The position numbers were made by a program, and so were the translations under genes. Positions 1 to 64,000 of a stretch of 64,000 bases of DNA are shown here, one piece after another (position 1 is the stretch's first letter; the number at the start of each line of letters is the position of its first letter). Under the pieces are notes generated by a model. It was given only the letters and a program-made list of their open reading frames with translations, searched no databases and had not been told where the DNA came from. Source of the stretch: Candidatus Saccharimonadota bacterium (lineage in GTDB: Bacteria > Patescibacteriota > Saccharimonadia > Saccharimonadales > UBA4665); assembly GCA_027459325.1 (NCBI GenBank), contig DAIDIO010000001.1:124001-188000 (forward strand), read 5' to 3'.

Positions 1-1
1 G

Positions 2-793
2 TTAGTCGGCAAGGCAATTAAAGACCGGCGCGATTCCGTCATTTTAGCCACTAAGTTTGGTAACGAACGAAGTCCTGACGGTAAGTTTTTGGGTGTTAAC
101 GGTAAACCGGAATACGTCAAAAAGGCTTGCGAGGCTAGCTTGAAGCGATTAGGCGTTGATCATATCGATCTTTATTACCAACACCGGGTAGATACGACAG
201 TACCGATTGAAGACACTATTGGTGCAATGGCTGACTTAGTTAAAGAGGGCAAGGTCAGATATCTTGGCATGAGTGAAGCTGCCGCCGAGACCATCAGACG
301 AGCCGCTAAGGTTCATAAAATTACTGCGCTGCAAACCGAATATTCACTATGGACGCGTGACCCAGAAGAAGAGATCCTGGAAACCGTTCGGGAGCTTAAC
401 ATCGGCTTTGTCGCCTATAGCCCACTAGGCAGAGGCTTTTTAACGGGTCGCTGGAAAACCCCCGAAGACCTGCCTGCTAACGACTGGCGGCGTAATCAGC
501 CCCGCTTCCAGGGCGATAACTTCACCAAGAACCTAGAGTTAGTAGAAAAAGTGCGTGAAATAGCCGGTGAAAAGCACGTTGAACCGGGTCAGTTAGCGCT
601 TGCTTGGGTACTAGCTCAAGGCCAGGATATTGTGCCGATACCGGGTACAAAACATATTGAATACTTAAAGCAAAATATTGAAGCCACCAAGATCAAGCTA
701 TCCGAAGAAGATATGGAGCGGCTCAATGAGGCGGCACCGGCTGGTTTTGCCAGCGGCGATCGTTATCCGGATATGTCAACAGTTAATCGTTAA
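2..793 (+). CDS. Aldo/keto reductase, 5' end outside window
   Basis: NAD(P)H-dependent aldo/keto reductase, a cytosolic TIM-barrel oxidoreductase acting on carbonyl compounds. The frame is open from the first bases of the window, so the N-terminus (roughly 60-70 residues including the catalytic Asp/Tyr region) lies upstream; the TTG at 89 is not the real start. Visible family marks are the catalytic-His segment [19 protein letters not shown], the [12 protein letters not shown] stretch and the coenzyme-binding [13 protein letters not shown] near the C-terminus. The layout resembles the AKR group related to YajO and potassium-channel beta subunits. The substrate cannot be predicted. The gene ends convergent with the next gene, overlapping its stop by 11 bp. 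Confidence 0.93.
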
Positions 794-1616
794 GGTGAAT
801 GACTTTCATAATACCGTCTGTATGTAACTCGCCCCGCCAAGTCCGATTAACTAATTTATAGGGGTTATCCAGTTTAATTTCGTCGATTTTTTTAACTTTG
901 GTGACTTTACTGATACCGTCTATGATTAGCTCACGTTCCTTATTAGTGTCAGGATCAACCATATGCGTAAGTTGCCAATTGTGCTTAATAGGCACCAGTC
1001 CGATGTCTAGCGAGGCAGCCCCGACCCACAGAAGTTTATCGCCAAAAACGTGAGCTTTTCGGTTATGCCAATGAATGCTGTGTGGAGTCAGCGGGTGTTT
1101 AGCATCAAAGGTGGTTGCCCAGAACCGGACATGATGCCGGTTAAAATTAGTTTTTCTGACTGGCATGCTAAAAGAAATATCCTGACGTCGGCCAAATAAA
1201 TATAAGTAGCTCATTGGTGAATGAAGATATCGTCTGTTGAGAACGATGCTTAAGATTTGTTTAATAACCGAGCTAGCATTAGTCGGATCAGATTTATTCC
1301 AGCCGGCTTTTTCCATAGTCATAATTAGTTCACGCCTAGTACAGATGATGCCAATGTTGAGCGGGTCAGAAGCAAAGCCGTCTGGGGTAACGCAGTATAG
1401 CGGTAGATGTTTTGGCGGGAGTATTATCCGCCAAATTCTGATTAAAGCCGGTATTAATACGTAAGCTGCCACGCCGTAAGTGAGCAATAATGCGATCAGA
1501 TAGGGTAAGTGTTTGTTAAAAAAGGGCAGAGTGTATTGCCAGGAGACTACAGCAATAACAATGCCGGGTATGAACACTGCCAGTCGCTTTAAGAATTTAA
1601 CGAGAATTTGTACCAT
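783..1616 (-). CDS. LssY C-terminal-domain membrane protein
   Basis: A 277-residue protein with two hydrophobic N-terminal segments (about residues 10-30 and 38-62), then a soluble domain resembling the LssY C-terminal domain (LssY_C). The supporting stretch is [17 protein letters not shown] followed by [25 protein letters not shown] and a [14 protein letters not shown] region, which keep the order known for that family. LssY was named from a Legionella type I secretion locus, but the domain's biochemical role is unknown, so only membrane location is inferred. It is convergent with the aldo/keto reductase and stands alone on this strand. Confidence 0.75.
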
Positions 1617-1702
1617 CTAACAGATTATATATTACACGATTGGTGGGCATTATATCATCGTTAAAATTACTGCGGCAAAAACGTTTATGCTAAAATATCT
1701 TC

Positions 1703-1972
1703 ATGCAACCTGAAACTTCTCCTGTTGAGCAACCACCGGTTGAGAGTCCGGTCCCGGATCCGGCTGCCCAACCAATGCCTGCCGAAGCATTGCTTCCAGC
1801 TACTCAACCGGCCCCTGATAAACCAGCGCCAATCGATAACCTGGCGCCCCAAAAAGCTAATGTTTCTAAATCTGCGAAAAGTTCTAATCATGTGACTACG
1901 GCCATTATTGCTACCGTCATTATTGTGATAGTTCTAGCCGTCCTTGCGGTTTATGCCTACACAAAAAAATAG
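1703..1972 (+). CDS. Proline-rich small membrane protein, C-terminal anchor
   Basis: An 89-residue protein: a Pro/Ala/Glu-rich low-complexity N-terminal half (about residues 1-55) and one transmembrane helix at about 64-86, ending in a short basic tail. No known domain is recognised. The start is favoured because a -10 hexamer TAAAAT (1691-1696) ends exactly 6 nt before the ATG, which predicts a leaderless transcript. It lies 22 bp upstream of tsaC, which has its own -10, so co-transcription is not required. Many proteins of this build occur in the window. Confidence 0.7.
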   Translation: MQPETSPVEQPPVESPVPDPAAQPMPAEALLPATQPAPDKPAPIDNLAPQKANVSKSAKSSNHVTTAIIATVIIVIVLAVLAVYAYTKK

Positions 1973-1994
1973 TTAAGGTCTAAAATAGTAGCCG

Positions 1995-2561
1995 ATGTTT
2001 GATGAAGCAATTAGATGCCTGCTTAAGCCAGGTGGTGTAGGTATTATTCCGACCGATACGGTTTATGGGCTGGTAGCCCGGGCCGCTGATCCGCAAGCTA
2101 TTGGTAGGGCCTATAGTCTTAAGGCCAGGGAATCCAAGCCGGGGCCGGTCATTGCCGCCAGCATTGATCAACTGGTTGAGCTAGGTGTTAAGAGACGGTA
2201 TTTAATACCGGTGGAGCAGTACTGGCCCGGCCCGATCAGTATAATCGTGCCGCATGGCCTGAGTTACCTTAGCCAGGGACTGGGTAGCCAGCCGTTTAGA
2301 ATCCCAGATAACCAAGCTCTAGTAAAGTTACTGGAAGTAACTGGGCCGTTGCTAGCAACCAGCGCTAATCAACCCGGCGAGCCGGTTGCGACTAATTTGC
2401 AGGCAGCTAAGGATTATTTTGGAGATAAAGTCGATTTTTATGTGGATGGTGGCGACTTATCTCATAACTCATCATCAACAATTATACGGGTTATTGATGA
2501 CGCCATTGAGGTTGTCAGAGAAGGTGCAGTCAAAATCAGTGAAGACGGCAAGATGGCTTAA
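1995..2561 (+). CDS. tsaC: L-threonylcarbamoyladenylate synthase (YrdC/Sua5)
   Basis: Makes threonylcarbamoyl-AMP from Thr, bicarbonate and ATP, the first step of tRNA t6A37 modification, in the cytosol. At 188 residues it is a YrdC-only form without the Sua5 C-terminal domain. Visible motifs are IPTDTVYGL near residue 18, the KARESKPGP basic loop near 42, YWPGPISIIVP, RIPDN and LATSANQPGEPV. The partner gene tsaE begins at the far end of this window. A TAAAAT hexamer ends 8 nt before the ATG, consistent with an almost leaderless message. Identification is firm; TsaC and Sua5 naming is interchangeable here. Confidence 0.93.
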   Translation: MFDEAIRCLLKPGGVGIIPTDTVYGLVARAADPQAIGRAYSLKARESKPGPVIAASIDQLVELGVKRRYLIPVEQYWPGPISIIVPHGLSYLSQGLGSQPFRIPDNQALVKLLEVTGPLLATSANQPGEPVATNLQAAKDYFGDKVDFYVDGGDLSHNSSSTIIRVIDDAIEVVREGAVKISEDGKMA

Positions 2562-2578
2562 TTGATTAAATAGTGAGG

Positions 2579-3268
2579 TTAGGAAGTCGATATCTGAATG
2601 TCTTCCAGGTTATCTACTACTCTAACGCGGTTCGTTTCGTAACTACCAAGGCTGTCTAGGTGTGGTATATCGCCGTTACGCTTGATGAGTAGAGCCTGTG
2701 CACCGAGGTTAAGAGCCAGTTGGGCGTCAACATATTGGTCGCCAATAACCAAGACGTTAGCCGGGTTTAACGAGTGTCTCTCCAGCCAATCACCAACCGA
2801 GCGTTTGTCAGGTTTTCGGAACTCAACTTCATCACTGGCTCTTACTTCGTGTATGCAGTCAGCGAGCGCGGTGCTGGCAATAATTGTTTTAGGACTGGCT
2901 GGCCCCCTCCCCCCATTAGCCCGGTTGGTTACTACTAGTTGATCAATAGACTGCCGGGCACAAGCGTTGGCAAGATTAAGGGCATCCTGGAATAGATGGC
3001 TTTCCAGATCGCTGGCATAATGTTTGTCCTGTTTTTCTAAGAAGAGGCTTACAACTTTTTTAAGCTCATCTATTGAACTTATGCCAAGGGTGGCCTTAAC
3101 AGTATCTTCCAGCGAACCATGGTAATTATGAAGGACTGTTTCTTGAGAGGGCATTTGATGTCCGCTTACCTCTACTACTTCTTCTATAATTTTTATAAAG
3201 ACTCCGAAACTATCGATCAGGGTGCCGTCTAAGTCCCAGATTAATCCCTTAATGTTATTTATTTCCAT
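2579..3268 (-). CDS. HAD-superfamily hydrolase
   Basis: Haloacid-dehalogenase-type phosphatase of about 229 residues. Motif I is WDLDGTLIDS at about residue 10, the motif II region VVTNR at about 113, a Lys in FRKPDKRS, and motif IV VIGDQYVDAQLA with the acidic pair. The cap is helical, as in phosphoglycolate-phosphatase-like members. An earlier in-frame start exists at 3295, but the ATG at 3268 places the family's N-terminal beta strand correctly and leaves only a 14-bp overlap with murC, so the two are probably translated from one message. The substrate is unknown. Confidence 0.88.
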   Translation of the reverse strand: MEINNIKGLIWDLDGTLIDSFGVFIKIIEEVVEVSGHQMPSQETVLHNYHGSLEDTVKATLGISSIDELKKVVSLFLEKQDKHYASDLESHLFQDALNLANACARQSIDQLVVTNRANGGRGPASPKTIIASTALADCIHEVRASDEVEFRKPDKRSVGDWLERHSLNPANVLVIGDQYVDAQLALNLGAQALLIKRNGDIPHLDSLGSYETNRVRVVDNLEDIQISTS

Positions 3269-4559
3269 GCTGAAATTCCTGACGTAGCCAATCATCTAGC
3301 GAGCCACCACCACCACCAGCCATTCCGACAACCATATCGCCGTTTTTAAGATGTTGCTTTATAGCTTCGACTAAAGAGTGGTTTTTATTAGCTGCTTCAG
3401 CAACCATGGGATTACTGAGATAAGTTATCAGCTCCTGGGGCGACAGTATAGATATATTTTTATCTTCTCTGGCCAGGTAACTGGGCAGCCAATACAGATG
3501 TTTAACATTATTAAATAAATCCCTGTACTGTTCTTTAATGTAATGCTGCCTCCGGTCGGTCAGCGGTTCGTAAACAATAACTAACTCCTGTCCGTTCAAT
3601 GCGGCTATTTCCATAGCGGCATTAAGGGCGGCTTTTATCTTCTCCGGGGTGTGGGCGTAGTCGCTATAAAGACCGGGTGCCAGCTTTTCCATCCGCCGAC
3701 TTAGGCCTGGAAAACGGTTGATACTGGCAAGTAATGCTTCTTTTGGCTGATTAAGAATTTTAGTGGCTGCCGATACCGCCAGACAGGCATCGAGACGGTT
3801 ATATTTACCAAGCAATTGTATTTCGTTAATTACCGGGTTAGCACTGTCAAGAATATGCAGTTTGTTGCTACCATTTAGGCGAAGATAGGTGGCATCTTCA
3901 TCCCAAATGTAAGTAGAATCTGATTGACTTATGAACTCCTGGAAGGCCGCCTGATAGTCTTCCCGGGTTGAAAATATTTCATGGTGATCCCAGCTAACTC
4001 CGGAAATTAAGCTGACTTCGGGCTCAAAACTTAAGAAATTCCTGTCAAATTCATCGGCTTCATAAATGAAGTATTCGCTCCCCTCGGTATATTGGCCCAT
4101 TTCGGCAAAGCTGGTTTTGGCCGGTAGCAGATAGCTGACGGGTATGCCCGATTCAATAAACAGCCAGGTCAGCATAGCTGTAGTAGTGGTTTTACCATGC
4201 GTACCGGCAATAGCAATTAATTTTAAGTGTTTGTCGTCCAGAATCTGGTTAAGCAGCTCATCCCGCTTGGATAGCCTAATCGACTGAGACTTAGCAAATT
4301 CTAATTCCGGGGGGTTAGGGTCTTCAAGAGTCAGGGCTGAGCTATAAACCAGCCAGTCAATCGGGTGACTGGCATGAAGTTTTTTAATTGTCGACTCTTC
4401 CTGGCCGATATGGATATTAGAAATACCTTTGTGTCTAAGAAAATCTATATAGCTGGAATTTTGCTTATCTGAGCCAGATACGCTGTAGCCGGCTTGTGCA
4501 GCAATTAAAGCCAGGGGGCCAATACCGGCGCCGCCGATGCCTGAAAAGTAGATATGCAT
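3255..4559 (-). CDS. murC: UDP-N-acetylmuramate--L-alanine ligase family protein
   Basis: Mur ligase adding the first amino acid of the peptidoglycan stem peptide, ATP-dependent and cytosolic. N-terminal Rossmann-like UDP-binding domain (YFSGIGGAGIGPLALIA), central ATPase with AIAGTHGKTTTTAML at about residue 117, then YEADEFDRNFLSF and SWDHHEIF typical of MurC/Mpl, and a C-terminal domain with SRRMEKL and DYAHTPEKIKAAL. The length (434) suits MurC. A Gly-rich run, VGMAGGGGGSLDDWL, near the end replaces the usual GAGDI-type loop. Mpl, the recycling ligase, is the main alternative. It is transcribed divergently from the 4635 gene; a TATAAA on the minus strand ends 10 nt before the ATG. Confidence 0.88.
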   Translation of the reverse strand: MHIYFSGIGGAGIGPLALIAAQAGYSVSGSDKQNSSYIDFLRHKGISNIHIGQEESTIKKLHASHPIDWLVYSSALTLEDPNPPELEFAKSQSIRLSKRDELLNQILDDKHLKLIAIAGTHGKTTTTAMLTWLFIESGIPVSYLLPAKTSFAEMGQYTEGSEYFIYEADEFDRNFLSFEPEVSLISGVSWDHHEIFSTREDYQAAFQEFISQSDSTYIWDEDATYLRLNGSNKLHILDSANPVINEIQLLGKYNRLDACLAVSAATKILNQPKEALLASINRFPGLSRRMEKLAPGLYSDYAHTPEKIKAALNAAMEIAALNGQELVIVYEPLTDRRQHYIKEQYRDLFNNVKHLYWLPSYLAREDKNISILSPQELITYLSNPMVAEAANKNHSLVEAIKQHLKNGDMVVGMAGGGGGSLDDWLRQEFQHGNK

Positions 4560-4579
4560 ATGTTAAGAGTTTATAGTCT

Positions 4580-4610
4580 TTGACGTCTCTTCGTCCAGTT
4601 GCTATATAAT
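4580..4610 (+). promoter_or_regulatory. Promoter in the murC divergent region
   Basis: TTGACG at 4580-4585 and TATAAT at 4605-4610 with a 19-bp spacer, followed by the ATG at 4635. It overlaps the start region of murC on the other strand, whose own TATAAA is at 4570-4575, so the two promoters probably interfere. The spacer is longer than the optimum of 17. Confidence 0.55.
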
Positions 4611-4634
4611 ATAGTTAGATTAAATAAAACAAAA

Positions 4635-5237
4635 ATGTATAAAAATAAAATTCAAAAGTACGCTAAGCAGTTTATCTCGCCGCTGACCTTAGGAGTTATG
4701 ACGATTATTTTTGGCCTGGTCTGTGTTTTTGCACTAAGAGCCAATAACAGTCATATGGGCCAGCTGAGGGCCGCTGTTTATGCAGCTGATAAGAACAACA
4801 CTAACGTGACTTTAGCCCTTCAGAACCTTCAGAAATACGTCACCAGGCATATGAACACCGACCTTAGTAGCGGTAAGGGGGCGGTCTATCCACCAATTCA
4901 GCTTAAGTATACCTACCAGCGATTGCTAAACCAGGAAAGTGATCAGGTAGCAAGCAGTAATGCCGCTCTTTATACTGAAGCTCAGAATTATTGCCAGCAA
5001 ATCATACCGAACGCTTTTTCAGGCAGGACGCGTGTACCCTGTATTGAACAATACATCGAGTCTCATGACAGCACCCTGGCTACCATACCGTCTTCACTTT
5101 ATGAATTTGATTTCGTCAGTCCCTCTTGGTCACCTGATTTAGCCGGATATAGTTTAATAGCGACTATTTTGAGCTTTTTTGCCCTGATAGTCGCTATTAT
5201 TTACCGTTTTGCAAGAAAGCCTTTGCTTTCCTTGTAG
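4635..5237 (+). CDS. Double-anchored membrane protein, unknown
   Basis: Unrecognised protein of about 200 residues with a transmembrane helix near each end (residues about 18-38 and 170-192) and a polar domain between them, predicted outside the membrane. That domain holds two Cys residues (NYCQQII and VPCIEQYI) that could form a disulfide. The ATG at 4635 is chosen because the in-frame TTG at 4599 lies inside the promoter. It is convergent with the next gene. No domain assignment is possible. Confidence 0.65.
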   Translation: MYKNKIQKYAKQFISPLTLGVMTIIFGLVCVFALRANNSHMGQLRAAVYAADKNNTNVTLALQNLQKYVTRHMNTDLSSGKGAVYPPIQLKYTYQRLLNQESDQVASSNAALYTEAQNYCQQIIPNAFSGRTRVPCIEQYIESHDSTLATIPSSLYEFDFVSPSWSPDLAGYSLIATILSFFALIVAIIYRFARKPLLSL

Positions 5238-5248
5238 TCGGTTACTAC

Positions 5249-5869
5249 TTATTTAGCAGGAGTAGTACTGTTGCTGCCACTTGGCTGAACTGAGTTGCTT
5301 GTGCTACCGGAGCTGCTACTCTGGTCAGAACACTGCTGGCCGTTAGGATGAGAACTGTTCCAGGTTGCTACAGCCTTTGCTACCTGACCGGTGCTTTGTA
5401 GGTTCTCCCAGAAGGTAACGCTAGAGCGGTTAATGACCATTTGATCATATGGTTGGTGTAATTCACAACCAAGTTTAACCAGGCTAACGTTATTGCTGGT
5501 AGAGCTTGAGCTAGTGCTAGAGCTGCTTGAGTTAGTTTGTAAATAGAAGATATTTGTTAGTACTAAGAAGTTATTATTTAGAGTCTTAATGTTTCCAAAG
5601 TATACTTGTCCAGTATTAAGGAAGACTGCCTGCAGCTTGCTACCATTAATGTACTGGTTTTCTGTGTCCTTAGTATTGTTGTTACCGGCATACAGAGCGG
5701 CGATTATGCCGATCAGTAATATTACTACGCAGGCTACGGCTGCGGTTACGCCGATACGTGTCCACAAGTCTTTATCTTGATTTTTTAATGGGTGCCTGTT
5801 CACGCCAGGCGCAGGAGCGTGTTGTGCTGGGTTAACAGCAGGTTGCGCGCCACGATTGGAAAAATCCAT
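5249..5869 (-). CDS. Single-pass membrane protein with Ser-rich ectodomain
   Basis: A 206-residue protein: about 38 polar Pro/His-containing residues, a basic patch, one transmembrane helix at about 40-62, then a domain containing GQVYFGNIKTLNNNFLVLTN, two low-complexity Ser/Thr tracts and a Pro/Ser-rich tail. A beta-rich module of the form VYFGNI...FLVLTN is common in small Saccharibacteria membrane proteins, but its function is unknown. On its own strand the start is preceded by an AAGGAAGG-type Shine-Dalgarno. The Cys pair in LGCELH and GQQCSDQ may be oxidised outside the cell. Confidence 0.7.
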   Translation of the reverse strand: MDFSNRGAQPAVNPAQHAPAPGVNRHPLKNQDKDLWTRIGVTAAVACVVILLIGIIAALYAGNNNTKDTENQYINGSKLQAVFLNTGQVYFGNIKTLNNNFLVLTNIFYLQTNSSSSSTSSSSTSNNVSLVKLGCELHQPYDQMVINRSSVTFWENLQSTGQVAKAVATWNSSHPNGQQCSDQSSSSGSTSNSVQPSGSNSTTPAK

Positions 5870-6034
5870 TTTTGTTACTCCACCTTCCTTTAGTGCTAAT
5901 GTTTACCGTCACAGTGTAATACAAGCGTTAGCTTTTATGCAAGAGATTTCATTAATTTCAGTATAACAGAGGTGTAAAACTCCTGCTCTTACACCTGATA
6001 ATCTCTTAAAAATCCTCAATCTAGGGAAAAGGGG

Positions 6035-6064
6035 TTGACAAATAAAAAGCCAACCGAGTATGTT
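6035..6064 (+). promoter_or_regulatory. Promoter of the 64-residue protein gene
   Basis: A perfect -35 TTGACA (6035-6040) and TATGTT (6059-6064) with an 18-bp spacer, about 45 bp before the ATG at 6109. A GA-rich ribosome-binding stretch (AAGAGAGGGAG) lies before the start. This is one of the stronger canonical promoters in the window and implies a leadered, abundant message. Confidence 0.65.
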
Positions 6065-6108
6065 AGGGGTACACTACTATAAGGTAAGAAGAGAGGGAGC
6101 CTAAATAT

Positions 6109-6303: not shown

Positions 6304-6322
6304 TTAGATATAACCTCACATT

Positions 6323-6360: not shown

Positions 6361-6378
6361 TATGTTATAGTAGGCACA

Positions 6379-8448: not shown

Positions 8449-9513
8449 ATGGCTAAACAACCTCACGAACGGCCTGGTCAAGAATCGTTCAATCTGCCTA
8501 GTATAGAGCAGCCAGCAGCTAAGCCTCTAACCCCAGAGCAGGTCAATGCTCATTTTGAGATGAGAGGGTACTTTTTTGAAGCTTATTCCAGTGAAACTAT
8601 GGCCGAAAGGTACTTATCTGATGTAACTAAGACAGAGACTGTTCGTACCGCACTTGCTAAACAAAAGCAAGCTGAAGCAAAAGTTGAAATCAATAACGCG
8701 AAAAGAAAATTTGCCATCTGGAAAGATTACCATCTTTTAGAGTCTGTAGACGATAAAGAGGTGACATTTTGGATAGAAGGTGATGACCAAGAAGGCACCA
8801 AAACTAACGCTTTCAACGATGACTTCGCTGAAGCCTATAAGCAGTTTCAGCTGGTGGTTGCTAGCTGCGGCGAATATTTGCCGAAAGGTTGGCTGAAAGA
8901 AAAGAAGCCTTCATTTGATGTCAAAGTTGAATTGGACCCCAGAAGGCTTATTGAAGCCAGTAATTCCACTCTTCTAAGCCCGGAAGCACTAACAGCCGCT
9001 GAATATTGGACGACAACCTTACTATTATGCAGTGCCGTAAACGCCAGAAAAGGCAATCCGGAACAGCCATCATCTAAAGATGAAGAGAGGAGAGCCACTG
9101 ATTATGACTACCCAAAAAACTATAAAGAGCTAGTTGAAAGAGTTAGAAGTGAACTTAGATATCGATTCCAAGAAGATATAAAAGAACAGCCCGAAAATCT
9201 TGATGAGCCAGTCCAGAAAGCTCAAATAATCGATATGACTAGTCGTCTCCCAACAGTACAGCTAGAGCATGCTCTTGATTATGCTATAGCCCAAAGCGCT
9301 GACCGGTTGCCTGTACTTAGACAATACAATTTACTGCCTGCAGCTATAGCCGACTATGGTAATGAATTATTTAGAATTGCCGTGCTAAAGGAGCAAGGAG
9401 AAATCGATCAGCAACCCGAACGTCGGGCTAATTATCTTAAACTTAGAAAAATTATTAATTTAAACAGAAAAAATATCGCTCTCGGCATACTATCGCTCGA
9501 AGGTGATTTATAA
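8449..9513 (+). CDS. Unknown soluble protein, 354 residues
   Basis: No domain recognised. The protein is charged, without signal peptide or membrane segment, and is mostly predicted helical, with several basic/acidic heptad-like stretches (for example KQKQAEAKVEINNAKRKFA). TACAAT ends 9 nt before the ATG. Its last codons hold the -10 of the following dihydrouridine synthase gene, so the two genes are very tightly packed but likely have separate starts. Confidence 0.6.
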   Translation: MAKQPHERPGQESFNLPSIEQPAAKPLTPEQVNAHFEMRGYFFEAYSSETMAERYLSDVTKTETVRTALAKQKQAEAKVEINNAKRKFAIWKDYHLLESVDDKEVTFWIEGDDQEGTKTNAFNDDFAEAYKQFQLVVASCGEYLPKGWLKEKKPSFDVKVELDPRRLIEASNSTLLSPEALTAAEYWTTTLLLCSAVNARKGNPEQPSSKDEERRATDYDYPKNYKELVERVRSELRYRFQEDIKEQPENLDEPVQKAQIIDMTSRLPTVQLEHALDYAIAQSADRLPVLRQYNLLPAAIADYGNELFRIAVLKEQGEIDQQPERRANYLKLRKIINLNRKNIALGILSLEGDL

Positions 9514-9520
9514 TAGACAG

Positions 9521-14841: not shown

Positions 14842-14845
14842 CTTC

Positions 14846-19160: not shown

Positions 19161-19306
19161 GTCATTATCATAACAAAATAATTAATAATTTATAAGAACT
19201 TTATTAATAGTTTTACATTAGATTGATTAATCAAGAATGATTTTGACAGGTATGCCTATGTTAGGATACAGCTAGTCGCGGAAAAGACGGTGATACACTA
19301 TGGTTC

Positions 19307-19669: not shown

Positions 19670-19743
19670 GGGGGCTTAGTGTAATGGTAGCGCGTTAGAT
19701 TCCAAACCTAAAAGTAAACGTTCGATTCGTTTAGTCCCTGCCA
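19670..19743 (+). tRNA. tRNA-Trp (CCA anticodon), atypical
   Basis: Acceptor GGGGGCT with AGTCCCT (first pair G-T), D-stem GTGT/GCGC with loop AATGGTA, anticodon loop TTCCAAA with four clean pairs and one A-C mismatch next to it, T-stem AAACG/CGTTT with a normal TTCGATT loop, discriminator G and encoded CCA. The fold is complete but weak. A leaderless-looking 25-codon frame begins at 19621 and runs into it; I regard that as chance. Confidence 0.7.
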
Positions 19744-19774
19744 GATTAAGGCACGAGGGCTTTTTTAATAATTT

Positions 19775-19849
19775 GTTGAGCGTAGTTTAACAGTAAAACG
19801 TTAGCCTGTGACGCTAAAGACGCGGGGACAGCACCCGTCGGCCACCCCA
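19775..19849 (+). tRNA. tRNA-His-like (GTG anticodon), degenerate
   Basis: Anticodon arm TTAGC-CTGTGAC-GCTAA is perfect and reads GTG; G-1 pairs with C73, and CCA is encoded. The acceptor stem has three mismatches in seven pairs. The T-stem (GCGGG/CCCGT) is intact, but its loop is GACAGCA, without the TTC core, and the D-loop AACAGTA has no GG pair. It may be a pseudogene or a structurally reduced tRNA. Confidence 0.55.
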
Positions 19850-19862
19850 CAAGCTAGAGTAC

Positions 19863-19937
19863 GCGACCGTGGCGGAATAGCTGCGCAGCTGTTTGCAAAA
19901 CAGTTTTAAGCAGGTGCAAGTCCTGTCGGTCGCTCCA
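19863..19937 (+). tRNA. tRNA-Cys (GCA anticodon), atypical loops
   Basis: Acceptor GCGACCG/CGGTCGC is a perfect 7-bp stem with discriminator T and encoded CCA. Anticodon arm GCTGT-TTGCAAA-ACAGT reads GCA. The T-stem GCAGG/CCTGT is paired, but the loop is TGCAAGT (G where T55 should be), and the D-arm has only three pairs (GCG/CGC) and a loop without GG. The strong acceptor argues that the gene is maintained despite the unusual elbow. Confidence 0.65.
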
Positions 19938-23476: not shown

Positions 23477-23504
23477 TTGACAAGTGATACACTTTTGATA
23501 CACT
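23477..23504 (+). promoter_or_regulatory. Promoter and tandem operator of the RHH-RelE module
   Basis: TTGACA (23477-23482) and TACACT (23499-23504) with a 16-bp spacer, ending 7 nt before the antitoxin ATG. The nonamer TGATACACT occurs twice (23485-23493 and 23496-23504), 11 bp apart, covering the spacer and -10. Tandem sites one helical turn apart are typical for ribbon-helix-helix repressors. Confidence 0.6.
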
Positions 23505-26179: not shown

Positions 26180-26803
26180 TTAGGGCATTAGTACGCTATT
26201 AATGACGAAGGTTACGCCATTACTGGAAATGACGTCTGGTGTTTGAATAGTTACTAAATTGCCTTTTGCGTCCTTTAGTTCCAGCTGGTTATTTTGCATG
26301 ACAGGTGTTAGTTGTTCGCCCTGTACGGTAGTTAATGTCTGTCCTTTTTCAGCCATTACTTTCAGAGCGGCTGAGGTGTAAGTACCTGGAACAACGTGGT
26401 AGGTCAAAATGTTCTTTAGCTGATCGACGTTAGCCGGCTGCTGCAGTGCACTGACGGTTGATGCCGGCAATTTGGCAAAGGCGCCATTGTTAGGGGCGAA
26501 AACTGTAAATGGTCCGGCTGATTCCAGTGTGCTGACTAGTCCTGCCTCTTGGACAAGCTTAACTACTGTCGTGACGTTTTTTGCATTAAGAGCGTTCTGG
26601 ACAATATTTTTAGAGTCTACCATTTTAGCTCCGCCTACGGTAACTCCATCGCTACTGGACATAGAAGACATCGACATTGAAGTAGTTGTGTTCTTACTTT
26701 GATGCCCGATGGCGTAACCAATGCCAAGACCGACAAGCAGGGTGATAACCGCGGTTATTATCCAGCTGCTTTCTATAGCCCCCGATTGATTTAATTTTTT
26801 CAT
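26180..26803 (-). CDS. Membrane-anchored fasciclin (FAS1) domain protein
   Basis: 207 residues: short N-terminus MKKLNQSGAIESS, a transmembrane helix at about 13-32, a Ser/Met-rich linker and one FAS1 domain with the H1 motif FTVFAPNNGAFAKLP and the H2 motif LTYHVVPGTY, ending GVTFVINSVLMP. FAS1 domains mediate adhesion to cells or matrix. A single extracellular FAS1 on a membrane tether suits a host-attachment role in an epibiont, an inference. Strong AAAGGAGGA ribosome-binding site; divergent from marR. Confidence 0.92.
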   Translation of the reverse strand: MKKLNQSGAIESSWIITAVITLLVGLGIGYAIGHQSKNTTTSMSMSSMSSSDGVTVGGAKMVDSKNIVQNALNAKNVTTVVKLVQEAGLVSTLESAGPFTVFAPNNGAFAKLPASTVSALQQPANVDQLKNILTYHVVPGTYTSAALKVMAEKGQTLTTVQGEQLTPVMQNNQLELKDAKGNLVTIQTPDVISSNGVTFVINSVLMP

Positions 26804-26847
26804 AGTTCCTCCTTTACAGAGTTTGTTATAAGTTAATTGTTGAGATA

Positions 26848-27398: not shown

Positions 27399-27454
27399 TG
27401 CTGTTTGCGCCAAGCTAGTCTACACTACGTAGTTACTTCTAAAGGAGGTAAAAT

Positions 27455-27871: not shown

Positions 27872-27916
27872 AATCAATACTTAAGCGATTTTGTCTTAAA
27901 TGGTATTATCTAACCT

Positions 27917-28465: not shown

Positions 28466-28516
28466 GGGCGTATTTGAGCTTAGCTAATTACACTAAATGC
28501 ATTACAATAACTACTA

Positions 28517-30432: not shown

Positions 30433-30530
30433 CTGGTAATTATAAGGCATTATCGATTGCTAAATTAAATTCTTACACAAGTGGAAATTTTAACTGTCCT
30501 GGCACTCCTGGGGAACTAGAGTTATTCTCT

Positions 30531-32689: not shown

Positions 32690-32912
32690 GCGCTAATAAT
32701 ACTAGCATCTAAATAGAAAGCACATACCAATTATAAGCAGTATAGTAGACCAGCGTTGGGCGAAATGGAACCAGCTTAAACTGGATCTTGTCGATATGTT
32801 GCAGATAGTGAAACAGGTTAGAGAAGCAATGACTATTGCAGGCTGAAGTAATATAATTGAATCATAGTTCTTATTCTTGCAATCACACAGAGCCTAAGAT
32901 AGATTGTTTACA
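32690..32912. other. Intergenic stretch with second remnant copy
   Basis: Plus-strand 32750-32848 reads DQRWAKWNQLKLDLVDMLQI then VKQVREAMTIAG and stop: the better-preserved copy of the fragment at 31642. No start codon or promoter is associated with it. Confidence 0.5.
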
Positions 32913-35128: not shown

Positions 35129-35156
35129 CAAGGGAAAAAAGGTATAATAGTCTTTT

Positions 35157-41855: not shown

Positions 41856-41886
41856 ACTAGCGGCCGATTAGTATATAATTAGACCA

Positions 41887-43121: not shown

Positions 43122-43244
43122 AATAAACCCCCATATTTTTACCTTTAAAGCTTAAAGCAGAAAAGGCTAATCCGCTGTGAAGAATTATGCGCCAACAGAT
43201 AAAACCGATTGCAAAAAATATCATAACATGCTATAATATATCTA

Positions 43245-43859: not shown

Positions 43860-43894
43860 CACTCTTGACACTTGAGTGCTAAAAGGCCTAAAAT
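43857..43894 (+). promoter_or_regulatory. CIRCE operator and promoter of hrcA
   Basis: TAGCACTC-N9-GAGTGCTA (43857-43881) is the CIRCE inverted repeat bound by HrcA. Its 9-bp spacer holds TTGACA (43865-43870), the -35, followed after 18 bp by TAAAAT (43889-43894), which ends 9 nt before the hrcA ATG. HrcA binding would block RNA polymerase directly, giving heat-shock and autoregulation. Confidence 0.92.
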
Positions 43895-43903
43895 ATATAG
43901 ATT

Positions 43904-48198: not shown

Positions 48199-48225
48199 GC
48201 TTAAAGAAGTTGGTAGAATTAAATA

Positions 48226-49305: not shown

Positions 49306-49324
49306 TCGGGTGTATAGTGTAATT

Positions 49325-49432
49325 ATGAAAAAGCTGAACAACTCTGGCTTTATACCAATGCTAATCATGCTGATTATAGCCGTAGTATTAGTCATCTATC
49401 TGATTTATAGAAAAATTCACGTCTCTCATTAA
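49325..49432 (+). CDS. Micro membrane protein, 35 residues
   Basis: Reads MKKLNNSGFIPMLIMLIIAV then VLVIYLIYRKIHVSH. One transmembrane helix fills residues 9-28. Its beginning, MKKLNNSGFI, matches that of the fasciclin protein (MKKLNQSGAI), so it may be a shared N-terminal targeting form; it lacks the Glu-5 needed for a pilin signal. TATAGT ends exactly 6 nt before the ATG. Confidence 0.6.
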   Translation: MKKLNNSGFIPMLIMLIIAVVLVIYLIYRKIHVSH

Positions 49433-50900: not shown

Positions 50901-50932
50901 AGCATAAGCATCACTCGTGCTATATTTAGTCT

Positions 50933-51626: not shown

Positions 51627-51640
51627 GCTATACTTTATGC

Positions 51641-53113: not shown

Positions 53114-53262
53114 GCCAGGCTTTATGTCTTTTAATGTTTATGACGCAGTAGTTGATAAAGGGTGCTATTCTTTGATGAATTCATGGCCTGATTCAATAAA
53201 TTACAAAACCCAATTCATTAACTAGCGAATATGCATTAAACAAATTTGCTATGATTATCGAT

Positions 53263-53919: not shown

Positions 53920-53957
53920 GCGGTAACGGGAATCTTTACGGGTGTATAGTTAGGATT

Positions 53958-56120: not shown

Positions 56121-56181
56121 GACCACTTAAGTCTCAGAAGCTGACTTACAGCAACCAATGAATAAGGTATAATATTAGGTA

Positions 56182-56913: not shown

Positions 56914-56964
56914 TTTAGGCTTAGAATCAGAAAAGAATAACAATCAGCTAGAAAGCATTAGATA

Positions 56965-57435: not shown

Positions 57436-57443
57436 TATATCCT

Positions 57444-58019: not shown

Positions 58020-58046
58020 GCTTCAGATAAAGAGTATAATACTAAC

Positions 58047-59075
58047 ATGATTGATCGAATTGTAAACGATCCTGAGCCGGAGGACGTCAGAGAAGTCGAG
58101 ATAGAAATTACTCTACGACCGAGAGATTTCAGCAGTTACATAGGCCAGGAACGGTTAAAAGAAAACCTACAACTGGCCATAAGCGCCGCCCAGAAACGTG
58201 AAGAACCGTTAGATCACATTCTGCTTCACGGACCACCGGGCCTGGGTAAAACAACCATGGCAAGTGTCATAGCAAATGAAATGAAAAGTCAGATACGGGT
58301 TACGGCTGGACCGGCAATTGAAAGGGCGGGAGATCTGGCAAGTTTACTTACCAATTTATCCGACGGGGACATTCTGTTTATAGATGAGATTCACCGCTTA
58401 AACCGGACAGTCGAAGAGGTTCTTTACTCGGCAATGGAAGATTTTAAGCTAGACATTATGCTCGGCAAAGGTCCGTCTGCTAAGTCGCTACGTCTGGATT
58501 TACCGCGTTTTACTATCATTGGTGCAACTACCCGGGCCGGTGATCTGGCAGCCCCACTCCGTGACCGCTTTGGCATGATCCACCGCTTAGAGTTTTATAC
58601 GATTGATGAGATTGAACAGATTATTAAGCGCGCCGCTAAGATCCTTAATGTCAAAATAGATAGTGCGGCTGCCACTGAGCTGGCTAAACGATCAAGGCTG
58701 ACTCCGCGCATTGCTAACCGCTTGCTTAAACGGGTTAGAGACTACGCTGACGTAAACGGCGATGGCTTTATAAACACCGAACTTAGCCATAAAGCACTTG
58801 GCCTTCTGGATATTGACGATCTAGGTCTAGATGCTTCAGATAGAAGGTTACTACTAGCAATCATTGAAAATTACGAAGGCGGTCCGGTTGGTCTGGACAC
58901 CCTGGCTGCCCTAACAGCCGAAGAACGTGGCACCATTGAAGACTTTTACGAACCTTATTTGCTGCAAATAGGACTCTTAGAGCGTACTCCGAGAGGCCGT
59001 AAGGTTACCCACAAAGCTTATAAGCACCTTAACAAGACACGACCTAAGCTCGACTCACAATCATCACTGCTTTAA
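58047..59075 (+). CDS. ruvB: Holliday junction helicase motor RuvB
   Basis: 342 residues, AAA+ motor: [20 protein letters not shown], Walker [10 protein letters not shown] at about 66, Walker [12 protein letters not shown], sensor 1 [18 protein letters not shown] with Arg finger, and a winged-helix end with [22 protein letters not shown] ends exactly 6 nt before the ATG. The stop overlaps the pilin gene's stop by 4 bp (convergent). Confidence 0.97.
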
Positions 59076-59572
59076 TCCAGATTTTGTAATTCGTCGTATT
59101 TAGCACCGTTAAAATTACCTTCATAACTTGCGTACAGGTTATATTGTGCGCATGTTTGATCTGCCTTAGAGCCAACCTTGCCATCGCAAGACAGTCCGTC
59201 GGATTGGGTTGGATAATACTCGTATTGCTTCGGCACTGGTTTGTTATTTCCTCCTAGACAGGCGGTTTTTGAAGGATTACACTTACTTAACGGATCGACA
59301 AGAATCGAATTATCCAGGTTCGGCATATATTTAGTGCGCCAACCGGCATCATTCATGTCGCTTAAGTTAGGGAAATAGCCATACCGGCTGTAAAACGTTT
59401 CAATATTACGTTGCAGAGCTAACAGATTACTTTGTCTAGTCGTATTTCTAGCCCTGGCCTGAATGCTGTTATATGTCTTAAAAACCAAAGCAGCCAGCAC
59501 AATTATTACTAAGATAAGTATTACAAGCTCATAAATTGTGAAGCCATCGGAATTTTTATCTTTACTAATCAT
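59072..59572 (-). CDS. Type IV pilin-like protein
   Basis: 166 residues. Prepilin signal [21 protein letters not shown]: cleavage after Gly, Phe+1, Glu+5 and a hydrophobic helix. Then a globular domain with [17 protein letters not shown] and four Cys, a shape typical of minor pilins. It would be cut and methylated by a prepilin peptidase (not in this window) and join a pilus or secretion pseudopilus with ATPase 59652-61385. Confidence 0.88.
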
Positions 59573-59651
59573 TGGGGAAATATTGTTTGTTTGACTTTCA
59601 TTTGCTTTAAGAATAGTTGGCCGTTAGCCTAAAATCAAGGCGTGCATTTGT

Positions 59652-61385
59652 TTAGAGGCAGCTTAGAACTTCGTCTAGGGTAGTCAGTCCTCTCAGCGCT
59701 TTTACCAGTCCGTCAATACCCAGCGGTATAAAAATGTTATTTTTTATAGCAATTTTAGAAATATTAGCCTGGCTCTCTCCGGCCGCCAGTTTGGCTGCAA
59801 TTACCTGATCGATCTCGAGTATTTCCTGAATGCCTATTTGACCCTTAAAGCCACTATAGTCACAGCGGGCACAGCCGTTCTTGCTAGCTTCCCAAAGCCG
59901 GTGCAGACTGGTTTCCGAAGTGCTAAGGTCGTTAGATTTAAGCGAGCTGATTTTTTCGTTAGCGGCGATTTTCTCCAGTCTATGTAAAGCTTTAATACCG
60001 CCATACTCGCCGACACCTAAAGTCATAAGCAAGGACTTCAAAGCCTGATTAGTCGGATGAACAACCACCTTGCAGTCATCGCATAGTCGCCGGGCTACGC
60101 GGGTGGCCATTGTCAGCCGGCTAACGTGAGCCAGTCTGAAGGGTTCGACACCGAGTGCCGAGATAACCCTTAAAGACTCTAGGGCGCTCGGGCTATGAAC
60201 ACCAGCCAGAACAAGACAATGCGCAGACATGCCTATAAGTTCATCAGCTACTGACGGGCTGGCAATGTTATCGATCAGAAGAACATCTGGATCATTCCGC
60301 TTCACGAGGCTAAGGGCTGCTTCATAAGTCGGCAAGTTGGAGTTTAATTCCATTTGACTAGCTCCGCTAACCCGGTAAGAAACTTTATCTTCAATAGTTA
60401 ACACGTTAAGGTTAGCTATACTGAGTTTATCTAATAGACTATATAGGGCTGTATTTTTTCCATGACGCTTCGGTGAGGCCACGATGACCAGGCCATGCTT
60501 ATTAGTTAGGCTATGCTCTACTGCTGCCAGATTTGTGCCGTATATTCCTAGACTGTTTAGTTTAGGTATCTGACCGTTCTCGCTGAATAGATTGAGTGTC
60601 AACTTTTCGCCATCAATCAGCGGCAGACTTAATAATTCCACCCGGTATATGTGGTGGCGGCTGCTTATTCTAAATTGCCCCTGACTGCCGGCCATAGACT
60701 TAAGCCGGTTAGCTATCATGTTTAGGGAGCCATATGGCAATTTATGCACTTCCTTTAGTCGGCCGTTTAGTCTAAACCGGACACTCAAGGCGTCCTGTTT
60801 TGGCTCAATGTGTATTGAAGTAGCATTGGCGGTTATAGCTTGCTCAAGTATATGGTGCACCGTGCTCAGAATATCTGCTTCGGAATAGGATTTTGAAGTA
60901 ATAGCCGGATGCGTTCTGAGCTGCCCGGGAGGCATCATAGCTAAGGCCGAATGTAAATGCGATGGCGGTGTAATATGTAGACTATAGTTTTCGCCAATTG
61001 TCTTGGCTAGTACTTCGGCGGCGCCAGGCATCAGCAGGGCATCTGAGGCTACAAGTTTTTTATTAGCCTTATCTATACTAAATACGACCACCCGATAACG
61101 GTGGGCCATTTGATGGGGTAGGACTGCTAGATGAGCAGCATCTAGCTCACTAAGCGGTAAACTAATAAAGGGTAAATTAACTGCTTGGGCGTAGGCTTTG
61201 GTGAGTGTGCTCTCGTCTAAAGTACCATAATGTAGTATCAGTTCGGCCAGGGGTAAATGACTAGCCTTAACTTCGGCTTTTAATTCTAATATTCTGGCAT
61301 TACTAACGCCAGCGTCTTGAAGTATTTTTTCAGCCAAACTATCTGACATTCGCATAGTCGGCTCCCAGTCTGATTGTTTTCCCAC
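59652..61385 (-). CDS. PilB/GspE-like ATPase with altered nucleotide site
   Basis: 577 residues from a GTG. N-terminal MshEN/GSPII_E domain (ARILELKAEVKASHLPLAEL), central ATPase with ATSIHIEPKQDALSVRFRLN and GRL, and C-terminal Cys pairs CDDC and CARC. Walker A is IVASPKRHGKNTALYSLL: the first Gly is replaced by Ser and the final Thr/Ser by Asn. Walker B is DPDVLLIDNIAS instead of DPD-x-I-x-x-GEIRD, so the catalytic Glu is gone. It may be a non-hydrolysing paralogue of a PilB assembly motor. Confidence 0.85.
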   Translation of the reverse strand: MGKQSDWEPTMRMSDSLAEKILQDAGVSNARILELKAEVKASHLPLAELILHYGTLDESTLTKAYAQAVNLPFISLPLSELDAAHLAVLPHQMAHRYRVVVFSIDKANKKLVASDALLMPGAAEVLAKTIGENYSLHITPPSHLHSALAMMPPGQLRTHPAITSKSYSEADILSTVHHILEQAITANATSIHIEPKQDALSVRFRLNGRLKEVHKLPYGSLNMIANRLKSMAGSQGQFRISSRHHIYRVELLSLPLIDGEKLTLNLFSENGQIPKLNSLGIYGTNLAAVEHSLTNKHGLVIVASPKRHGKNTALYSLLDKLSIANLNVLTIEDKVSYRVSGASQMELNSNLPTYEAALSLVKRNDPDVLLIDNIASPSVADELIGMSAHCLVLAGVHSPSALESLRVISALGVEPFRLAHVSRLTMATRVARRLCDDCKVVVHPTNQALKSLLMTLGVGEYGGIKALHRLEKIAANEKISSLKSNDLSTSETSLHRLWEASKNGCARCDYSGFKGQIGIQEILEIDQVIAAKLAAGESQANISKIAIKNNIFIPLGIDGLVKALRGLTTLDEVLSCL

Positions 61386-61559
61386 CCGACAACATTATTC
61401 ATATTGTATATTAACTCCGGTGTTATTCACAGTAAAACATTAAAATTATATGAAATTAGATTATCTTAGGCTTAGTTATCCTAGCCAAAACTGTTAGAAT
61501 ATATTAAACAAGGTTTTAAAAGGATACTACAAGCCTTTACTAAAGAGAGGGGATAATTT

Positions 61560-62588
61560 ATGGCTAAGGCCACTACTAAAGCAGATACTAAGCCAGAGGC
61601 TAGTGAAGGTAAAGCAAAAGCCTTAGGATTAGCGCTAGAATCTATTGAAAAGCAATTTGGTCGGGGATCAATAATGAAGCTAGGCGAAACCCACCATACG
61701 GTTGTTGAGACTACTCCTACAGGTGCCTTAAGTTTAGACTTAGCTCTTGGTGGCGGTTTACCAAAAGGCCGGGTTATTGAGATCTACGGTCCTGAATCAT
61801 CCGGTAAAACAACCATAACTCTGCATGCCATAGCCGAAGTTCAGAAGAACGGTGGCACAGCCGCCTTTATTGATGCAGAGCACGCTCTTGACCCGGCATA
61901 CGCCAAGCGTATCGGTGTTGACGTCGACAATCTCTTACTCAGTCAGCCGGATAATGGTGAGCAGGCTCTTGAAATAGTTGAAACATTAGTCCGTTCTAAC
62001 GCCGTTGATTTAATCGTAGTTGACTCAGTTGCTGCCCTGGTTCCGAGGGCGGAAATTGAAGGTGAAATGGGTGACGCCTTGCCAGGGTTGCAGGCACGTC
62101 TCATGAGCCAGGCTCTTAGGAAATTGACAGGTGTAATTAGCCGCTCCCGAGGCAGCGTAATATTTATTAACCAGATCCGTATGAAAATTGGCGTGATGTT
62201 TGGCAATCCAGAAACAACTACAGGCGGCAACGCCCTGAAGTTTTATGCCTCTGTGCGCATGGATATCCGACGGGTTGGCCAGATCAAACAAGGTGAAGAA
62301 ATAGTTGGAAACCGCGTTAAAGTTAAAATAGTCAAGAATAAGATCGCCCCACCTTTCCGCCAGGCCGAATTCGACATTATGTATAACCAGGGTATCGCTT
62401 ACGTAGGCGATGTAGTTGATTTGGCAGTAAACAATAACCTACTCGAAAAAGCCGGAGCCTGGTATTCATATCAAGGAGAAAAGGTTGGACAAGGTCGGAC
62501 GGCGGCCATTAGCTATCTAAACGATAATCCAAAAATACTAAAAGAGATAATTACTAAGATTAAAGAAATAGACGCCGCTAAAGTATGA
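61560..62588 (+). CDS. recA: Recombinase RecA
   Basis: 342 residues. Walker [11 protein letters not shown] at about 77, [40 protein letters not shown], and the L2-region [20 protein letters not shown]. Mediates strand exchange and repair. Strong GAGAGGGG site 8 nt before the ATG. No LexA box (CGAAC-N-GTTCG-type) is seen upstream, so SOS control is not evident from sequence. Confidence 0.98.
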
Positions 62589-63187
62589 AGCTGACTGCTA
62601 TTAAAAAGCAGATTAACAGTAACCACCGATTTAGTATTTTCGTAGATAACAAATACTCGTTTTCACTCGGCGAAACCGAAATTTTAAATAGTGGCATAAA
62701 AATAGGCCAGGAATTAACGACTGAAGAACTCAGTAGACTTAAGCAGCTGTCCGTCCAGGATAATCTTTATGCCCGGACTCTTAAACTGGTTGCCGTTAGA
62801 CCTAAAAGCGAATGGGAAGTAAAAACCTATCTTGAGCGAAAAGGTGCTTCCCCTACCCTGACAGAAACTATACTTAACAAGTTAAGAGACATTGGCTTGC
62901 TTGATGATTATAAATTTGCCGAAATGTATGCCCGGGACATAAAAGCCCACTCCCCTGCTTCACGTCGTAAAATATTATCCAAGCTTAAACAAAAACGCGT
63001 TAATGAAGAAGCAATAAAAAACTTTTTAGAAAATATAAAGGACAATGATACAGATGCCCTGCAGGCGCTAATTGAAACAAAATCCCAGAAGTATAAAGAT
63101 CCGGTTAAGCTGATGGCTTACCTGTCACGGCAGGGTTTCAATTATTCAGACATTAAGGAAGCCCTAAATAAACAAAATACGGATTAA
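62585..63187 (+). CDS. recX: Regulatory protein RecX
   Basis: 200 residues, overlapping recA by 4 bp (ATGA). Three-helix repeats: [40 protein letters not shown] and [20 protein letters not shown]. It limits RecA filament growth. The tight overlap couples its supply to RecA. Confidence 0.93.
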
Positions 63188-63711
63188 AGTGTAGTTGGAA
63201 CAGGGGCGCTAACCCGTAGCTTAGCTTTACTCACAAGCTCGCTAATAACAATTGCCTTAGGTGTAATTTCCTGAATTAAGGATCTGTCGATGCTCAGTGA
63301 GCCACCGGTAAAGCTCTTTAGAATACTTTGGGAAACATATAACTTTTGAATATATAGGGTGTTAGTATCATAGGCGTAATCACTTACCTTGCCTACCTTG
63401 GTTTTATCTAGCGTGACTACCTGCTTACCGACCGGATCAAAGCCTATTTCCAGAACCTTTTTTAATCTTACTAGCTCCTCTGGTTCAGCTAGTACTTCAT
63501 GATCATTAACAAAAAAGCCCATTGGTCCGGTTTCTCTGATGTCCTGGGTGAGTAAGACCAGATCATTTTTATTGAATTTATCCTCACAATAAAAGCCTTC
63601 AATTTTAAGGTTATCTGGATTAATAATGACAGACGTGACAATAGCCACTGCGCTGCCCGTCCTTAAGGATAATACTTGTTTATTCTGAAGGCTTTCGCTG
63701 AGCTGCAACAT
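63184..63711 (-). CDS. PRC-barrel domain protein
   Basis: 175 residues with two PRC-barrel-like halves: LSESLQNKQVLSLRTGSAVA with VTSVIINPDNLKIEGFYC, and VLEIGFDPVGKQVVTLDKTK with VGKVSDYAYDT. PRC barrels occur in RNA-processing factor RimM and in photosynthetic proteins; the exact role is unknown. Convergent with recX, overlapping by 4 bp. Confidence 0.82.
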   Translation of the reverse strand: MLQLSESLQNKQVLSLRTGSAVAIVTSVIINPDNLKIEGFYCEDKFNKNDLVLLTQDIRETGPMGFFVNDHEVLAEPEELVRLKKVLEIGFDPVGKQVVTLDKTKVGKVSDYAYDTNTLYIQKLYVSQSILKSFTGGSLSIDRSLIQEITPKAIVISELVSKAKLRVSAPVPTTL

Positions 63712-63767
63712 ATATCTAGTATAACTCTAGGCAACCGACTAGCTAATGAATTAGTATAATGAGACTT

Positions 63768-64000
63768 ATGAACAGTAGTTTAAGCTTAAATTCCGACAGT
63801 CCAGAAGAGACCTTAAAAATAGGCGAGACTATTGGTAATAATTTGCGTGGTGGCGAGGTAATTGAGCTGATTAGTGATCTTGGTGGAGGGAAGACTACGC
63901 TGACTAAAGGAATTGCTGAGGGAGCAGGTTCTAAAGACAATGTTCATAGCCCTAGTTTTACCATTGAAAACGAATATACGGCAAAAGATTTAATTATTCA
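63768..64000 (+). CDS. tsaE: tRNA threonylcarbamoyladenosine ATPase TsaE, 3' end outside window
   Basis: 77 codons of the N-terminal part. ELISDLGGGKTTLTKGIAEG is the P-loop region, with Ser at the place of the first Gly of the usual G-D-L-G-A-G-K-T, and SPSFTIENEY is the second TsaE signature. TsaE is the ATPase that supports t6A modification with TsaB/TsaD; tsaC is at 1995. TATAAT (63755-63760) ends 7 nt before the ATG. Confidence 0.9.
   Translation, partial: MNSSLSLNSDSPEETLKIGETIGNNLRGGEVIELISDLGGGKTTLTKGIAEGAGSKDNVHSPSFTIENEYTAKDLII

Follow-up and report, generated by a model that had tools for sequence, protein, structure and literature searches.

Promoter-like boxes abutting start codons point to leaderless gene starts beside Shine-Dalgarno-led genes in a Candidatus Saccharimonadota genome

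We analyzed a 64-kb stretch of a Candidatus Saccharimonadota genome (the window, G000:C11:124001-188000; GC content 43%) together with other parts of its 27-contig, 822,790-bp assembly, and found that many genes carry a TATAAT-like hexamer directly before the start codon. About 1 gene in 5 seems to have a promoter abutting its start codon, so that the message would be leaderless or nearly so. Very probably, judging from the sequence patterns described below, these hexamers are sigma-70-type −10 boxes that give leaderless or near-leaderless mRNAs, beside genes led by Shine-Dalgarno (SD) sequences.

The genome-wide set comprised 458 starts in 465 kb (401 kb outside the window plus the window itself) of the 823-kb genome. 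Genes were called by a promoter-blind gene finder that prefers ATG, and each start was set at the first ATG within 60 nucleotides (nt) of the start of the longest open reading frame (ORF) or, failing that, at the longest-ORF start. A two-motif fit that took TATAAT and AGGAGG as seeds and left the spacers free yielded the −10 matrix; here the spacer is the number of nt between the end of the hexamer and the start codon. A −10 matrix scan against controls, which the initial annotation had proposed as a check, gave a sharp peak that begins at spacer 6. At spacers 0 to 12 there were 9, 6, 6, 2, 2, 0, 29, 24, 26, 16, 9, 13, and 8 matches, against a background of 4.9 per position further upstream, and boxes at spacers 6 to 8 numbered 79 where 14.8 were expected (P = 1.4e-31). 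An onset at 6 is expected of leaderless start points, since a shorter spacer would place the transcription start point inside the AUG. Plain matches to at least five of the six bases of TATAAT, counted before longest-ORF starts, showed the same peak (5, 35, 31, 26, and 14 at spacers 5 to 9; ~7 per position further upstream).

With longest-ORF starts, TATAAT (111 matches) outranked all 19 other permutations of three A and three T, the next being TAATAT with 89. The first fitted motif read T90 A97 T53 A71 A53 T96 (percentages) and had 45% of its mass at spacers 6 to 8, while the second remained purine-rich; in five dinucleotide shuffles with equal seeds, 3 to 9% of the first-motif mass fell there and the peak was lost. 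Using a matrix derived solely from boxes that lie outside the window, we found a box at 92 of the 458 gene starts (20%), compared with 24 of 1,829 internal in-frame ATGs (1.3%), 37 of 3,468 internal out-of-frame ATGs (1.1%), and 10 of 249 out-of-frame ATGs upstream of genes (4%). The permutation ranking, the shuffles, these ATG controls, and the genomes without a peak described below led us to reject chance and general A+T richness as explanations. The leaderless share came to 16.4% from the excess at spacers 6 to 9 and to 18% from the TAnnnT excess at spacers 6 to 8 (133 of 458 starts, 50.6 expected). A mixture fit at spacers 6 to 9 gave 29%, which is probably too high because the fit gave zero weight to starts with neither signal.

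Several features of the boxes are those of promoters. A TGn extension, which was not part of the model, precedes 38 of the 95 boxes at spacers 6 to 9 but 18 of 143 background matches (Fisher P = 1.8e-6). The usual transcription start point lies seven to eight bases after a −10 box. A pyrimidine occupies the sixth position past the box in 72, 67, and 77% of cases at spacers 6, 7, and 8, respectively, compared with 62 to 63, 51 to 54, and 38 to 42% in the other start classes. The start-point pyrimidine is clear only at spacer 8 (where it falls at −3) and suggestive at spacer 7. The sequence itself shows where the boxes lie, how they read and are extended, how they avoid SD motifs, and what their gene context and spread are; the RNA 5′ ends and the mode of ribosome initiation are what we infer. 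The hexamers would be ordinary sigma-70-type −10 boxes, often with a TGn extension; RNA polymerase would start on the A of AUG at spacer 6 and up to ~3 nt earlier at spacers 7 to 9; and the resulting mRNAs, with a 5′ leader of zero or nearly zero length, would present a 5′-terminal AUG that is translated without SD pairing. In other bacteria, leaderless initiation proceeds via 70S ribosomes or IF2, and it may do so here.

Alternatively, the boxes could be promoters for which leaders of ~3 to 10 nt are the rule, with start points at least 9 nt after the box and short-leadered rather than leaderless mRNAs. Such leaders would account for the smaller excess at spacers 9 to 12 (16, 9, 13, and 8 against 4.9), for the A found at −1 in 65% of spacer-8 boxes, which fits transcription that begins one base ahead of the AUG, and for a start-point signature at spacer 6 that scarcely differs from that of other starts. 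We consider them unlikely as the rule, since the onset at exactly 6 and the sixth-base pyrimidine at spacers 7 and 8 indicate the usual start distance. It is far less probable that the A+T-rich hexamers are an unstructured context that enhances translation. Folding at starts is indeed weaker than within genes in every class (over 40 nt, about −3.5 kcal/mol at starts and −5.3 to −5.9 kcal/mol in internal stretches), but this weak folding is equal in the three classes, TATAAT is the strongest permutation, TGn is present, and the peak persists at 60 and 62% GC; a special fold at leaderless starts was not found either, as the first 40 nt fold equally in all three classes. Finally, a gene-calling artifact, with TAA made more frequent close to starts by the rule of taking the first ATG that follows an in-frame stop, fits the geometry at spacer 8, where the TAA of TATAAT is in frame, but was rejected as highly improbable because that TAA is out of frame at spacers 6 and 7, the same pipeline gave no peak in Escherichia coli or in the gamma- and alphaproteobacterial pools, and the outside-window matrix finds a box at 36 of 143 unambiguous starts.

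Leaderless candidates, defined by a box at spacers 6 to 9, account for 95 of the 458 starts (including 2 with both a box and an SD motif); 105 starts have an SD motif, scored as SD four-mers 3 to 11 nt upstream, and 258 have neither. SD motifs precede 107 starts altogether (23%), compared with 16 to 20 at positions shifted by 20, 30, and 40 nt. The two signals avoid each other, as 2 genes have both where ~22 would be expected from 95 boxes and 107 SD motifs. Additionally, the 57 SD genes likely to have their own promoter show 36 −10 matches 20 to 54 nt upstream, while the 48 likely to lie within operons show 9; in this comparison the two genes with both signals were counted as leaderless. Both results support the split between two translation modes suggested in the initial annotation. 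Its statement that leaderless starts are a main start mode stands in a narrower form: with 16 to 29% of genes leaderless, depending on method, and 23% with SD, leaderless initiation would therefore be one of two main modes. Among the window genes to which clear SD sequences had been attributed, those starting at 26803, 27455, 24391, and 16878 and recA (61560) bear this out, whereas the motif before dnaK (start 45752), AAGAAGGG, is weaker than that and fails the SD test. ATG was the start codon in 90 of 95 box, 96 of 105 SD, and 236 of 258 remaining genes, which is partly due to the ATG preference of the pipeline.

Gene context differs between these classes. Boxes are more frequent among genes that probably carry a promoter of their own (66 of 263, compared with 29 of 195 others; P = 0.008). 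Gaps of 21 to 60 nt to a co-directional neighbor are found for 26 of 53 leaderless candidates but 36 of 241 other genes (P = 3e-7), whereas gaps of 20 nt or less are found for 10 of 53 and 128 of 241, respectively. The leaderless mode would be commoner where a gene likely has its own promoter, chiefly behind a gap that just fits one, and the remaining genes, leadered or within operons, would rely on translational coupling or on the SD system, which is kept. For the genes with neither signal, 91 of 166 co-directional ones lie no more than 20 nt from the preceding gene, and translational coupling is plausible for these closely spaced genes. Miscalled starts explain little of this class: 16 of the 258 have a box at 6 to 8 nt from another in-frame start, and 6 have one at a control distance.

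We rejected the idea that the SD machinery has been lost. IF3, S1, and bS21 are all matched in the genome itself, its S1-domain proteins including one of ~370 amino acids (aa) with four matches, and the anti-SD sequence TACCTCCTTT is read at the 16S 3′ end of 7 relatives; 16S was matched in 9, two of these matches being incomplete or unread. Across 21 genomes, IF3 was matched in 18, S1-domain proteins in 21, and bS21 in 20. This looks like leaderless initiation beside an apparently complete SD system.

We surveyed other genomes with one pipeline and the same matrix, calling a box at spacers 6 to 8 significant at P < 0.01. Judging from its RecA, the genome of the window is a Saccharibacterium of the class Saccharimonadia and the phylum Patescibacteria, and these names are used here for the class and phylum that it shares with sampled genomes. 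All six other genomes of the family, order, or class were significant (G004, G087, G017, G019, G018, and G069). So was a pool of eight named loci, the best RecA matches at 71 to 74% identity to the window RecA (29 boxes where 3.7 were expected; 128 starts), in which TGn precedes 26 of 32 boxes and 7 of 36 background matches; seven of these loci have Candidatus Saccharibacteria or Saccharimonas in their titles, and the eighth is called "uncultured bacterium." From 73 same-phylum genomes, 15 outside the class were chosen for long contigs, and 9 were significant (G025, G048, G037, G044, G080, G053, G071, G052, and G065). The peak persists at high GC (G069, 60%; G037, 62%). In G037 (stretches L176 to L179), 11 of 75 starts have a box at 6 to 8 where 0.9 were expected, the highest ratio in the survey. 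Of 80 named loci, 47 were used (the 8 best matches, 23 alphaproteobacterial, 10 gammaproteobacterial, and 6 Streptomyces) and 33 were not. The plasmid MP1 of Deinococcus radiodurans, as a control, was positive (125 starts; 6 boxes by matrix where 1.0 was expected, and 12 by TAnnnT where 2.6 were). Streptomyces had 0 of 77 by matrix and 5 by TAnnnT, with 1.2 expected. No peak was seen in E. coli (0 of 119 by matrix), the gammaproteobacterial pool (5 of 175; 4.1 expected), or the alphaproteobacterial pool (3 of 358; 3.0 expected). Reading TGA as a sense codon was tried for groups below 50% GC and selected for none. The mode appears to be common to the sampled Saccharimonadia relatives and present in many genomes sampled from the remaining phylum, though not in every one.

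Orthologous genes vary in their start signals. For ruvB in the order (29 loci given among 57 matching genomes, with weak matches counted), a box lies at 5 to 10 nt in 6 of 28 readable loci and an SD motif precedes 12; one same-family locus (L213) keeps the box at exactly 6, and another (L217) has an SD motif instead. For yebC, 7 of 30 loci, our own included and one without upstream sequence, have a box (two at spacer 5, one with an SD motif as well) and 16 have an SD motif. For recA, none of 11 loci has a box and 7 have an SD motif. By eye, 6 of the 30 yebC loci (L245, L249, L254, L258, L261, and L266) share an upstream promoter string, TATAATAACAG, that is longer than the −10 box, and near variants of it occur at other yebC loci.

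A number of observations weigh against leaderless initiation as set out here. A −35-like hexamer peaks weakly at gap 17 (12 of 95 boxes), yet 9 boxes have one at gap 10 (other gaps, 0 to 9). TGn is not enriched in every genome (in G037, 2 of 11 boxes and 5 of 9 background matches), and the start-point signature is uneven, with the −1 pyrimidine at spacer 6 barely above the other classes. The drop to zero at spacer 5 is obtained only with first-ATG starts, as 5 plain matches remain there with longest-ORF starts. Also, the starts scored with the matrix were the ones used to fit it, although the held-out window test below agrees with the result. More than half of the genes (56%) have neither a box nor an SD motif, and the organism's own 16S is absent from the assembly. 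Elsewhere in the phylum, 6 of the 15 genomes had no peak at P < 0.01 (G082, G091, G032, G042, G061 with P = 0.015, and G076); these negatives are weak, because there were just 29 to 80 starts per sampled genome. G017, of the same order, was not significant by the laxer TAnnnT test (5 where 2.7 were expected; P = 0.14). Gene-by-gene conservation of start mode, tested with the ruvB, yebC, and recA orthologs, was not found; since orthologs change mode, start mode would therefore characterize the lineage and not the individual gene.

Within the window, the 22 starts for which a TATAAT-like hexamer had been listed all have TAnnnT ending 6 to 8 nt upstream, 10 of them at exactly 6 as counted previously, and the hexamers placed 9 to 11 nt before six further starts (8449, 43904, 55521, 38670, 34231, and 40472) had also been described correctly. 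At least five of six bases match TATAAT in 21 of the 22 boxes, the exception being the one before 23512. Of these 22 starts, 17 were also chosen by the promoter-blind gene finder; the five that it did not choose comprise three downstream ATGs (30432, 53263, and 53958), an ORF under its length limit (49325), and an ORF cut by the window edge (63768). Eight boxed starts can be added to the list (1616, 13016, 22098, 26889, 37029, 54821, 57444, and 63711). A hexamer with at least five matching bases lies at 6 to 8 nt before 24 of 79 pipeline starts, compared with 82 of 1,917 ATG triplets (window, both strands, starts included), and the matrix trained on boxes outside the window finds 23 matches before those 79 starts where 3.0 were expected. 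The listed boxes and two SD-led counterexamples are given in Table 1.

Table 1. Start-proximal −10 boxes and SD counterexamples in the window (TG, TG extension present)
Signal	Spacer (nt)	Positions	Strand	Start	Gene and remarks
−10 TAAAAT	6	1691..1696	+	1703	89 aa, without Pfam family; extended −10, TATGC ahead of box
−10 TAAAAT	8	1981..1986	+	1995	Sua5/YrdC
−10 TATAGT	7	6366..6371	+	6379	ABC transporter ATPase; TG
−10 TATAAT	6	9509..9514	+	9521	Dihydrouridine synthase; box overlaps end of preceding ORF
−10 TATGAT	6	19167..19172	-	19160	Ribbon-helix-helix protein; TG
−10 TACACT	7	23499..23504	+	23512	TG; perfect TTGACA 16 nt upstream of box
−10 TATTAT	7	27904..27909	+	27917	Mntp manganese efflux family; TG
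−10 TACAAT	8	28503..28508	+	28517	
−10 TATAAT	6	30439..30444	-	30432	Weak AAA_18 match under Pfam cutoff; ATG 30450 upstream also possible
−10 TATTAT	6	32696..32701	-	32689	APH family phosphotransferase
−10 TATAAT	8	35143..35148	+	35157	AAA + peptidase M41, FtsH-like
−10 TATAAT	7	41874..41879	+	41887	DUF427
−10 TATAAT	7	43232..43237	+	43245	GGDEF; TG
−10 TAGAAT	6	48214..48219	+	48226	DnaJ; TG
−10 TATAGT	6	49313..49318	+	49325	35-aa ORF, no Pfam family
−10 TATATT	6	50921..50926	+	50933	TG
−10 TATACT	6	51629..51634	+	51641	Helix-turn-helix protein; TG
−10 TATGAT	7	53250..53255	+	53263	HD domain; TG; longest-ORF ATG 53251 inside hexamer
−10 TATAGT	7	53945..53950	+	53958	Histidine phosphatase; longest-ORF start 53901
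−10 TATAAT	8	56168..56173	+	56182	YebC/TACO1
−10 TATAAT	6	58035..58040	+	58047	RuvB
−10 TATAAT	7	63755..63760	+	63768	TsaE; continues past window end
SD AAAGGAGG		26808..26815	-	26803	Fasciclin-domain gene; SD-led counterexample
SD AAAGGAGG		27441..27448	+	27455	SD-led counterexample

Some further observations concern genes of the window. The 35-aa ORF behind dnaJ (49325-49432) has one hydrophobic stretch and is possibly a small membrane protein; its N terminus, MKKLNNSG, is similar to that of the fasciclin-domain protein at 26803 on the minus strand, MKKLNQSG. Upstream of hrcA (start 43904, Pfam HrcA), positions 43864-43903 contain GAGTGCTAA between a TTGACA and the −10 box, a stretch similar to one half of a CIRCE element. 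Three consecutive tRNA-like stretches occupy 19670-19937: Trp, a partial 60-nt Rfam match (19781-19840), and Cys, of which ARAGORN calls the outer two only.

Patescibacteria make up a very large, mostly uncultured share of bacterial diversity and have reduced ribosomes. It is quite possible, and we put it forward tentatively, that leaderless initiation is ancestral and widely kept in the Candidate Phyla Radiation (CPR), that genes flip between leaderless and SD-led states over short evolutionary times, so that reduced genomes fit a whole promoter in gaps of a few tens of nt, and that some CPR lineages have lost the mode. If ~1/5 of genes are indeed leaderless in many Patescibacteria lineages, then gene starts in them are perhaps partly misannotated, their expression would not be predictable from SD motifs, and one more deep lineage would add weight to the case for an ancient origin of leaderless initiation in bacteria. 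Our literature search, which covered open-license papers, brought up none on leaderless genes of Saccharibacteria, Patescibacteria, CPR, or TM7, although an earlier mention is possible; some hits used the word only in a cited reference or for the factor YchF. The novelty seems to lie in the lineage; Actinobacteria and Deinococcus are already known to have genes of this kind.

The closest known counterparts are the "TA-led" genes, which are reported to make up ~20% of genes in Actinobacteria and more in Deinococcus-Thermus, with SD genes alongside (Zheng et al. 2011, PMC3160421). The same study describes TAtaaT boxes in medium-GC groups and orthologs that change mode with phylogenetic distance; "TM7" is absent from it, and 1 of its 207 genomes is "unclassified." Our genome has the same TA-like box ~10 bp before the start, SD genes alongside, a similar share, and a turnover of start mode that agrees with the Actinobacteria pattern, but in another lineage, Saccharibacteria and other Patescibacteria, with sampled genomes of ~0.6 to 1.7 Mb. 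By the sequence characters tested, namely, a box far above background, TGn, and hardly any SD on the same genes, this would be a lineage with TA-led genes. A survey of non-SD genes in 260 prokaryotes ascribes their upstream nucleotide bias to leaderless mRNAs, and Patescibacteria are not among the phyla of its phylum table (Nakagawa et al. 2017, PMC5397173). In D. radiodurans, according to a recent report, about a third of genes have a −10 motif mostly 6 to 7 bp before the ORF, a ribosome-binding-site class exists alongside, and the box has been shown to function as a −10 region (Zhong et al. 2025, PMC12340547). That motif is TANNNT; in our 43% GC window the box reads TAtAAT, and its role as a −10 region is predicted from sequence.

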